From positions 1 through 52,508 of the forward strand of contig JACCZE010000098.1 of NCBI GenBank assembly GCA_013696105.1: a stretch of 52,508 nucleotides of DNA, in the 5' to 3' direction. The notes beneath the pieces are model-generated. The model did not search any database. It worked only from the letters and a program-made list of their open reading frames with translations, and had not been told where the DNA came from. Source of the stretch: Planctomycetota bacterium (lineage in GTDB: Bacteria; Planctomycetota; UBA11346). The translations under genes and the position numbers were made by a program. Position 1 is the stretch's first letter. Each line of letters starts with the position of its first letter. Of this stretch, positions 4,054 to 52,508 are shown one piece after another.

Positions 4054-4280
4054 ACGTGCTACGTGCTACGTGCTACGTGCTACGTGCTACGTGCTCCGTC
4101 CTCCGTCGACGGCATCGAGATCAGGCGCCGCTCCGGAGGCGCGACGGGCTGTCCGACGGAGGACGGAGCGCGCTGGACGCAGCAAGTGGCGTGCCGTCCT
4201 CAGTCAACGGCATCGCACAGGCGCCGCCTCCCCAGGCGACGGGCTGTCGACGGAGCACGAAGGACGGAGGACGGAGCACG
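4054..4280. repeat. Heptad-phased intergenic element, locus A: six perfect ACGTGCT units (4054-4095) plus two imperfect hairpins (4091-4169, 4191-4280)
   Basis: Direct reading; arms gtgctccgtcctccgtcgacggc / gctgtccgacggaggacggagc and gtgccgtcctcagtcaacggc / gctgtcgacggagcacgaaggacggaggacggagcacg. Confidence 0.9.
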
Positions 4281-6258: not shown

Positions 6259-6297
6259 CCTGTCCGACGTAGGACAGCGGACGGAGGACGGAGGACG
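6259..6297. repeat. Heptad-phased intergenic element, locus B (half element)
   Basis: cctgtccgacgtaggacagcggacggaggacggaggacg; reverse complement reads gtcctcc gtcctcc gtccgct gtcctac gtcggaca ggc. Confidence 0.75.
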
Positions 6298-15519: not shown

Positions 15520-15555
15520 ACGTCCGACGTCCGAGGTCCGACGTCCGAGGTCGGG
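15520..15555. repeat. Heptad-phased intergenic element, locus C (half element)
   Basis: acgtccgacgtccgaggtccgacgtccgaggtcggg = GTCCGAC GTCCGAG GTCCGAC GTCCGAG; begins at the serA stop codon. Confidence 0.8.
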
Positions 15556-45261: not shown

Positions 45262-45373
45262 CACGTCCGACGTCGACAGCAGCCCCACGACACGCACTCA
45301 CTGTTTACCCGCCTGACCCGACATCGGAGGCGCGCCGTGGCTCGGATGCGCGGCTGTCCCGACGTCGGACGTT
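45262..45373. repeat. Heptad-phased intergenic element, locus D, filling the gap between two convergent genes
   Basis: Left arm acgtccgacgtcgacagc (45263-45280), right arm gctgtcccgacgtcggacgt (45353-45372). Confidence 0.85.
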
Positions 45374-49986: not shown

Positions 49987-50115
49987 AGGCTCTCCGACCC
50001 GATCGTTCACCGTCCGGTACGGGCACAAGATGCGAACGGATGCACCGGGCCCAGGGTATCCGGGGTTGCCGCTCCTGGGCGTGGGTCTAGCATGCGCCTC
50101 CCCCACGGAATCGCC

Positions 50116-51891
50116 ATGAAACGCACCCATACCTGCGGCCAACTGCGCGCCGCGCACATCGACAAGACGGTCACGCTCTGCGGCTGGGTGCAGAACTACC
50201 GCGACCACGGCGGCATCATCTTCCTCGACCTGCGCGACCGCGACGGCATCACCCAGCTGACCTTCGACCCGGATCTCTGCGGCAAGCCGGCGCACGAAGC
50301 CGCGAGCCGCGCGCGTTCGGAATGGGTGCTGCAGGTCAGCGGCACGGTCAAGAGCCGGGGCGATCGCAAGAACCCCAACCTCGACACCGGCGAGATCGAG
50401 GTCTTCGCGCAGGAGATCACCGTCCTCAACAAGGCCGAGACCCCGCCGTTCGAGATCGACGCGCACGCCCAGGTCGGCGAGGAAGTGCGCCTGAAGTACC
50501 GCTTCATCGATCTGCGTCGTCCGCAGATGCAGAAGAACCTGATCACCCGCCACCGCGCGGTGAAGCTGGTGCGCGACTACTTCGACGCCCACCGCTTCCT
50601 CGAGATCGAGACCCCGATCCTCTGCAAGTCCACCCCGGGCGGCGCGCGCAACTACCTGGTCCCCTCGCGCGTGCATCCCGGTTCGTTCTACGCGCTCGCC
50701 GAGAGCCCGCAGCTGTTCAAGCAGCTGCTGATGGTCGGGGGATACGACCGCTACATGCAGGTCGCGCGCTGCTTCCGCGACGAGGACCTGCGCGTCGACC
50801 GCCAGCCGGAATTCACGCAGATCGACATCGAGATGAGCTTCATCGACATGGACGACATCATGGCCATCGGCGAAGGCATGGTCTCGAAGCTGTGGAAGGA
50901 GCTGCTCGGCGTCGAGCTGCCGATGCCGAGCAGGCGCATGACCTGGACCGAGGCGATGCTGACCTACGGGTCCGACAAGCCCGACCTGCGTTTCGCCCTG
51001 CCGATCGTCGACCTCACCGACTGGGCGCCGTCGAGCGGCTTCACCGTCTTCCAGAACGCGGTCGCGGCCGGCGGCGTGGTGCGGGCGCTCAACGCCAAGA
51101 AGGCCTTCGAGACGCTGTCGCGCCGCACTCTCGACCAGCTGACCGAGTTCGTGAAGGGTCACGGAGCCAAGGGCCTGGCCTGGATCAAGGTCCAGAACGG
51201 CGAATGGCAGGGTCCCGCGGCCAAGAACATCACCGAGGCCGCGCGTGCGGAGCTCGCCAAGCGCCTGGACGTGGGCGACGGCGACGTGCTGTTCTTCGGA
51301 GCCGACACCGTGAAGACCGTGTGCGCGGCGCTCGGCGCCCTGCGCGTCGAGCTCGGCGTCAACAAGCTCGGGCTGGCCAAGCCCGGGGATTGGCAGTTCC
51401 TGTGGGTGCACAGCGCGCCGTTGTTCGAGTGGTCGGACGAGGCCAAGGCCTTCGTCGCAGTCCACCATCCGTTCACCGCCCCGTACGACGAGGACGTCGA
51501 CCGCATCTCGACCGACCGCGCGAACGCGCGTTCGAAGTCGTACGATATGGTGCTCAACGGCATCGAGATCGGCGGCGGCTCCATCCGAATCCACGACAGC
51601 CCGACCCAAGGCAAGGTCTTCGCCGCGCTGGGGATCAGCGAAGAGGACGCGCAGCAGAAGTTCGGCTTCCTGCTGCACGCGCTCTCCTTCGGCGCGCCTC
51701 CGCACGGCGGCATGGCCTTCGGCCTCGACCGGCTGATGATGCTCATGGCCGGCGCCGAATCGATCCGCGAGATCGTCGCCTTCCCCAAGACCCAGAAGGC
51801 GCGCGACGAGATGGTCGACGCCCCGAACGCGGTCACAGAGCGGCAGCTGAAAGAGCTGCACATCGTGACCTCGGCGGCGGCGAAGGCGTAG
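50116..51891 (+). CDS. aspS: Aspartyl-tRNA synthetase, bacterial type
   Basis: VTLCGWVQNYRDHGGIIFLDLRDRDGITQ, RFIDLRRPQMQKNL, FRDEDLRVDRQPEFTQIDIEMSF, GMAFGLDRLMMLM. Confidence 0.96.
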   Translation: MKRTHTCGQLRAAHIDKTVTLCGWVQNYRDHGGIIFLDLRDRDGITQLTFDPDLCGKPAHEAASRARSEWVLQVSGTVKSRGDRKNPNLDTGEIEVFAQEITVLNKAETPPFEIDAHAQVGEEVRLKYRFIDLRRPQMQKNLITRHRAVKLVRDYFDAHRFLEIETPILCKSTPGGARNYLVPSRVHPGSFYALAESPQLFKQLLMVGGYDRYMQVARCFRDEDLRVDRQPEFTQIDIEMSFIDMDDIMAIGEGMVSKLWKELLGVELPMPSRRMTWTEAMLTYGSDKPDLRFALPIVDLTDWAPSSGFTVFQNAVAAGGVVRALNAKKAFETLSRRTLDQLTEFVKGHGAKGLAWIKVQNGEWQGPAAKNITEAARAELAKRLDVGDGDVLFFGADTVKTVCAALGALRVELGVNKLGLAKPGDWQFLWVHSAPLFEWSDEAKAFVAVHHPFTAPYDEDVDRISTDRANARSKSYDMVLNGIEIGGGSIRIHDSPTQGKVFAALGISEEDAQQKFGFLLHALSFGAPPHGGMAFGLDRLMMLMAGAESIREIVAFPKTQKARDEMVDAPNAVTERQLKELHIVTSAAAKA

Positions 51892-51900
51892 GAAGACACC

Positions 51901-52110
51901 GTCCTCAGTGCTCCGTCCTCCGTCCTCTGTCGACAGCATGACAGCCGCCTACCTCCGGCTGTCGACGGAGAACCGAGGACGGAGCACGGAGCACAGAGAC
52001 GTGAAGAAAAACGTTCTTCGTTCTCAGTCCTCGTCCTCCGTCGACAGCATGACCGCCGCGTGTCTCCGGCTGTCGACGGAGCACCGAGGACGAAGCACGT
52101 AGCACGTTTT
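51901..52110. repeat. Heptad-phased intergenic element, locus E: two consecutive hairpins
   Basis: Cores gtcgacagc-(20 nt)-gctgtcgac at 51929-51966 and 52041-52078, each flanked by GTSCTCC-type heptads; T6 follows at 52107. Confidence 0.92.
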
Positions 52111-52124
52111 TTCGAAAGGATCCC

Positions 52125-52508
52125 ATGCCCGACATCGAGCTTCCTGGCGCGTTCTACCTCGGGCGCGTGCGCGACGTCGCCTCCGGAGCCACCTCCGCCG
52201 AGCCGGTGCTCCTGGATGCGCGCGATCTGACCACGCATGCGGTGTGCATCGGCATGACCGGCAGCGGCAAGACCGGGCTATGCCTGGGGCTGATCGAGGA
52301 GGCGACGATCGACGGTGTGCCGGTGATCGCCATCGATCCCAAGGGCGACATCGCCAACCTCGCGCTCGCCTTTCCCGGGCTCACGGCTGGCGAATTCCGC
52401 CCGTGGATCGACGAGGACGAAGCCAGGCGCAAGAGCCTGACGCCCGATGCGCATGCGGCCGCGGTCGCCCAACGCTGGAGCGCGGGCATCGCGTCCTGGG
52501 GCCAGGAC
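52125..52508 (+). CDS. HerA-like/DUF853-type ATP-binding protein, truncated by window end
   Basis: MPDIELPGAFYLGRV...AVCIGMTGSGKTGLCLGLIEEA (Walker A), VIAIDPKGDIANLALAFPGL; AAAGGA upstream. Confidence 0.75.
   Translation, partial: MPDIELPGAFYLGRVRDVASGATSAEPVLLDARDLTTHAVCIGMTGSGKTGLCLGLIEEATIDGVPVIAIDPKGDIANLALAFPGLTAGEFRPWIDEDEARRKSLTPDAHAAAVAQRWSAGIASWGQD

Follow-up and report, generated by a model that had tools for sequence, protein, structure and literature searches.

The window, meaning the whole 52,508-nucleotide stretch of DNA that was analysed, is contig 167 of a 4.33-Mb Planctomycetota MAG comprising 481 contigs. Toward its right-hand end, aspS and a gene for a HerA-like ATPase lie on the same (+) strand and flank two hairpins, E1 and E2, the parts of which were delineated from the sequence:

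50092–51891, + strand: aspS (aspartyl-tRNA synthetase; Pfam PF00152, PF02938, PF01336), upstream neighbour
51901–51928, + strand: left arm of E1, four heptads (GTCCTCA, GTGCTCC, GTCCTCC, GTCCTCT)
51929–51966, no strand assigned: E1 core GTCGACAGC (51929–51937), 20-nt loop (51938–51957) and core GCTGTCGAC (51958–51966)
51967–51994, − strand: right arm of E1, four inverted heptads
52013–52039, + strand: left arm of E2, four heptads, the third of which (GTCCTC) is one base short
52040–52077, no strand assigned: E2 core GTCGACAGC (52040–52048), 20-nt loop (52049–52068) and core GCTGTCGAC (52069–52077)
52078–52105, − strand: right arm of E2, four inverted heptads
52125–52508, + strand: HerA-like ATPase gene (Pfam PF01935, PF05872), downstream neighbour, running off the contig

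E1 and E2 are 89% identical over 74 nt at a spacing of 111 bp, and their RNA folding z-scores range from −6.1 to −7.6, with no shuffled sequence reaching equal stability. The initial annotation had described two consecutive hairpins between these genes, each with a 9-bp core around a 20-nt loop and with arms of in-register 7-bp units; the sequence and the fold z-scores bear this out, save for the shortened unit in E2. The same core and heptad grammar had been attributed to four further loci in the window (A–D), which is the case only in part: locus A has both arms (plus extra units), whereas the other three are reduced or carry heptads of another type:

4056–4279, no strand assigned: locus A, five GTGCTAC units and two GTNCTCN heptads, a spacer, and four inverted heptads (4252–4279)
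6283–6296, − strand: locus B, a remnant consisting of one arm with two inverted heptads
15522–15549, + strand: locus C, a single arm of four GTCCGAN (second-type) heptads
45265–45370, no strand assigned: locus D, a GTCGACAGC...GCTGTCccGAC core with a single GTCCGAC-type heptad to either side

Across the whole genome the pattern GTNCTCNGTNCTCNGTC has 412 matches, compared with 0 for the reversed pattern used as a control, which places the hairpin family far above chance. Sampling of 730 kb yielded 57 element clusters, or ~141 in the genome when scaled by matches, the sampled contigs having mostly been picked for carrying matches, such that density is biased upwards and placement is unbiased. 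The proposal that these hairpins belong to a dispersed family with further copies is thus upheld, at ~140 clusters by extrapolation.

The element consists of two inverted arms, each approximating (7-mer)x4-GTC, around a spacer of ~30–100 nt. Exactly four heptads are present in 128 of the 177 arms that have at least two units; the three bases inward of the arm are GTC in 50/51 left arms and 47/51 right arms, and the outer boundary is often AAC/GTT. The arms are not self-complementary, and the hairpin arises solely by pairing of arm with arm. Heptads of this genome conform to GTNCTCN, with positions 1, 2, 4, 5, and 6 (G1, T2, C4, T5, C6) almost fixed; because the search tolerated one mismatch per unit, this scarcity of mismatches is informative. 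Across 392 units, position 3 is never A, being C, G, or T throughout. A second heptad type, GTCSGAN, has the same core as the first, and the arms are almost always of one type (161 pure type 1, 14 pure type 2, 2 mixed). Formation of G-quadruplexes by the arms is unlikely: ~27% of units have a base other than C at position 7 and so no longer contain the GG of GGAGNAC, making four intact GG tracts the exception.

The covarying base pairs envisaged in the initial annotation are absent from the variable columns within this genome, with no arm-to-arm covariation at position 3 (0.423 versus 0.386 expected, p 0.18) or position 7 (0.564 versus 0.572), and none between the inner cores of the two arms. 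Since positions 3 and 7 vary independently between arms, what is conserved is not base pairing, and a structured RNA with a conserved helix was rejected on the basis of positions 3 and 7 and the cores. As judged from these sequence patterns, each arm would act as a copy of a recognition motif, and compensatory change would not be holding a helix together. Between species, both arms change heptad dialect together, and a change of motif also accounts for such a shift.

Based on a home-made gene caller (coding 90%), the 57 clusters comprise 34 in tandem gaps, 13 in convergent gaps, 4 in divergent gaps, 4 within genes, and 2 at edges, with one of the four divergent calls being the aspS–herA locus, where the caller chose an antisense ORF over aspS. 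The gaps of at least 90 bp that are available number 176 tandem, 32 convergent, and 73 divergent; divergent gaps are under-used. Most elements lie 4–13 bp from the stop codon (median 3′ distance ~10 bp), and distances to the start codon are broadly spread.

Contrary to the forecast, placement is not strictly intergenic: 4 of the 57 clusters lie in frame within genes, as elements of 92–111 bp in mnmG, uvrA, mfd, and a HrpA-like helicase gene (an example of the predicted peptide spanning the insert in MnmG/UvrA/Mfd is SVLRPPSSVDGR). The insertion site is occupied by ~30–40 residues in the UvrA and MnmG of this genome, compared with ~5 in solved UvrA and MnmG, and the insert is missing from the UvrA of genome G012 and from other MnmG of the family. 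Only a single copy of mnmG is present in the genome, and the element-interrupted gene is therefore presumably functional. Element lengths are evenly spread over the three frames (18, 16, and 17), which indicates that the in-frame cases reflect selection against frameshifts.

A position just after stop codons would be accounted for if the element were a functional RNA 3′-end element, the transcribed hairpin of which ends or protects mRNAs as a terminator, processing stop, or exonuclease block; the ~10-bp median 3′ distance, the broad start-codon distances, the under-use of divergent gaps, and the very stable folds are consistent with this. However, TTTT occurs at only 3/60 downstream ends of elements, and an intrinsic terminator (a GC hairpin followed by a T-tract) was rejected for the rarity of the T-tract. 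Four copies also lie midway in translated genes, the variable positions lack covariation, and REP elements have an equal 3′ bias (PMC3733652). In addition, one element (L097:18883–19078) stands beside a separate, apparently canonical terminator hairpin (recognized by eye, L097:19040–19080), which the congener G001 keeps without the element. We therefore consider a role at RNA 3′ ends unlikely, although it is the most credible of the alternatives and protection of mRNAs may still be among the effects of the element.

The genus was compared in two genomes, the present one and G001, both of which are fragmented MAGs. The closest named relatives of MnmG place the present genome in Planctomycetota; the best match is isolate MGR_bin361, apparently the G001 genome itself, as the MnmG region is identical. 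At the matching aspS–herA locus, G001 has two hairpins with four-heptad arms, the units being mostly GTTCTGN as opposed to GTNCTCN; identity between E1 and E2 is 86–87% within species and 76–78% across species. Six orthologous elements together show a strong heptad shift, both at position 3 (T, p ~2e-10) and at position 6 (p ~9e-7); the search pattern prescribed positions 1, 2, 4, and 5, which are therefore uninformative. In uvrA, the GTNCTCN arms correspond to GTCCGAC x4 / GTCGGAC x4 in G001, placed at the same nucleotide on the right-hand side, and in mfd to a single GTCCGAC x4 arm; in both genes the arm type is switched as whole blocks between the species. Orthologous elements with altered heptads occur at aspS–herA, mnmG, uvrA, mfd, and other sites. 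Among G001 arms, 50 are pure type 2, 6 are pure type 1, and none is mixed; hairpins with GGTGGTT-type heptads, a third dialect, were also seen in G001 (L233:2285–2385). Nine clusters of the present genome were mapped on both sides, and G001 carries an element at eight of these sites, which indicates that recent mobility is low; one further site has the element in the present genome only, and another in G001 only. The elements thus persist in place with concerted heptad change, and one dialect per genome combined with a constant unit number is not predicted by simple decay or by locus-by-locus slippage.

Period 7 dominates tandem arrays in Planctomycetota, and at loci of other phyla nine tandem arrays have period 7 compared with at most one at any other period. 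Neighbouring arrays are predominantly inverted rather than direct in the present genome (36:5), G001 (11:2), and G017 (19:1); this excess is absent in the distant genomes G033 (5:7) and G130 (2:6). Inverted heptad pairs occur in G017 and also, in smaller samples, in G023 and G014 (heptads GTCCGAT, GTCCGGG, GAGCTAC, and GTTCGAN). The first three of these types coexist in G017 (L271–L278), where some elements have a left arm uniform for one variant and a right arm uniform for another. The planctomycete G033 (L239–L244) has arrays of period 7 (45) and period 8 (17), with units such as GTACTCG, GAAGTAT, and GAGTAAC, and the complete AT-rich Planctomycetota genome G109 (L249–L250) has arrays of GTCCTCA and GGCAGTC heptads. 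At a Lentisphaerae locus near mnmG (L164:3232–3315), two degenerate heptad arrays (CCAAAGT / ACTTTGG) form an inverted pair, a hint of inverted-heptad architecture beyond Planctomycetota.

The dominance of period 7 in this phylum and at loci of others would be expected if replication slippage had expanded a heptameric simple-sequence repeat and quasi-palindrome template switching had kept the arms alike. The greater homogeneity within than between arms in some G017 elements points in this direction, as do the heptamer excess reported elsewhere and the four-unit preference in Xanthomonas/Nostoc (PMC4692102). Nevertheless, the prevalence of exactly four units, the unmixed heptad types, the conserved cores common to the arms, and the single dialect across the elements of a genome, orthologous ones included, argue against slippage, which we likewise regard as improbable. 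It is very unlikely that, by analogy with telomere repeats, which are set by a template and not inherited, a dedicated templated process would write arms as whole 28-nt blocks of four heptads and overwrite the dialect genome-wide while the element keeps its place. Uptake sequences have fixed motif positions, dialects, and inverted pairs at 3′ ends, all of which resemble the present element, but a DUS/USS-like signal maintained through uptake drive, its dialects differing between species and its inverted pairs lying close to gene ends, is hardly credible and DUS/USS identity was rejected, as isolated heptads outside arrays are not enriched (GTCCTCC average, GTGCTCC low).

With respect to known systems, a search of Rfam gave no match above the cut-off and only sub-threshold miRNA-like matches. 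The statement that no named element fits therefore stands for Rfam and for the literature searched. The stronger claim of a previously undescribed system requires narrowing: placement matches that of REP and RPE elements (PMC3733652, PMC2229807), and heptamer arrays are known elsewhere (PMC4692102), whereas the four-heptad arm architecture and the concerted, in-place dialect switching at orthologous sites remain new, no description of either having been found in the literature searched.

REP elements lie near 3′ ends in tandem and convergent gaps, with few in divergent gaps (PMC3733652), and also occur inside repair or RNA genes, uvrA and helicase genes included (PMC3733652, PMC3116915). The heptad element similarly lies within ~10–20 bp of 3′ ends in tandem and convergent, and rarely divergent, positions, has copies within uvrA, helicase, and repair/RNA genes, and lacks a flanking transposase; many dispersed inverted doublets with a spacer are common to it and REP/REPIN. 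However, REP units are stem-loops of 20–40 bp tagged GTAG or CGTC (PMC3733652, PMC3116915), whereas the arm described here strings together four 7-bp units and is not self-complementary, and the element fails the structural definition of GTAG/CGTC REPs. Heptad phasing and arm-type switching are not described for REPs in the literature searched. Of the two REP/REPIN super-families, GTAG and CGTC, the latter has members without a known transposase (PMC3733652, PMC3116915). For the heptad element, no link to RAYT was found: PF01797/Y1 counts across 41 genomes do not follow heptad content, and the flanks examined of Y1/RAYT-like ORFs in the present genome and G001 contain no heptads. Two RAYT-like Y1-transposase ORFs of the present genome (L315 and L316; open frames of 413 and 352 aa) are without heptads nearby.

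Rickettsia palindromic elements (RPE), as summarized in PMC2229807 (Ogata 2000), are palindromes of ~100 bp found both in intergenic regions and, in frame, within conserved genes. By that description, the in-frame copies in mnmG, uvrA, mfd, and the HrpA-like gene resemble RPE; heptad arms do not feature in that summary, and the elements belong to another phylum with an unrelated lifestyle. Bacterial MITEs such as Correia, RUP, ERIC, and YPAL are short, with inverted ends, no ORF of their own, and some in-frame fusions (PMC2229807), and these features recur here, with inverted arms as the ends; neither a parent transposase element nor a target duplication was found for the heptad element. The intergenic heptameric repeats, comprising cyanobacterial STRR, TAACTGA (PMC4679880), and GGGNATC (PMC4692102), are comparable in their 7-bp units, intergenic location, and few units per array, but STRR-type repeats are direct arrays, and no fixed element with inverted arms and a conserved core is described for them; here, period 7 is clear, but the arms are inverted and mostly (128/177) of four units.

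Placement, in-gene targets, and the lack of a flanking transposase indicate that the element works like REP and RPE (PMC3733652, PMC2229807, PMC3116915). We hold at about an even chance that it is a non-autonomous, REP/RPE-like palindromic repeat with heptads that are read by a putative trans factor; its likeliest function is that of selfish or neutral DNA recognized by such a sequence-specific factor. Copies may formerly have owed their spread to a transposase that worked in trans on both ends, and the absence of any transposase found to bear heptad-arm ends counts against this origin. A sequence-specific trans factor (that transposase or a host protein) would recognize the heptads as repeated sites, with this recognition keeping the fixed heptad positions fixed while positions 3 and 7 drift. 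If the specificity of this factor changed, the copies could be re-standardized by recombination or conversion between elements, which would have only short homology to act on. The hairpin would be harmless after stop codons and in protein loops, allowing survival at these sites. This scheme is weakest as to the identity of the factor, how the copies would have spread, and how they would have been rewritten.

These findings extend to Planctomycetota the occurrence of protein-coding palindromes, which were mainly known from Rickettsiales and some REP-rich bacteria. In two sister species the element occupies the identical nucleotide (at aspS–herA, mnmG, uvrA, and mfd) and keeps its number of arms while all of its heptads have changed, which provides a clean natural experiment in the maintenance of uniformity among short bacterial repeats. 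With elements that remain in place and change their heptads, what standardizes dispersed bacterial repeats becomes testable, with possible relevance to the unexplained heptamer-repeat excess of bacteria.
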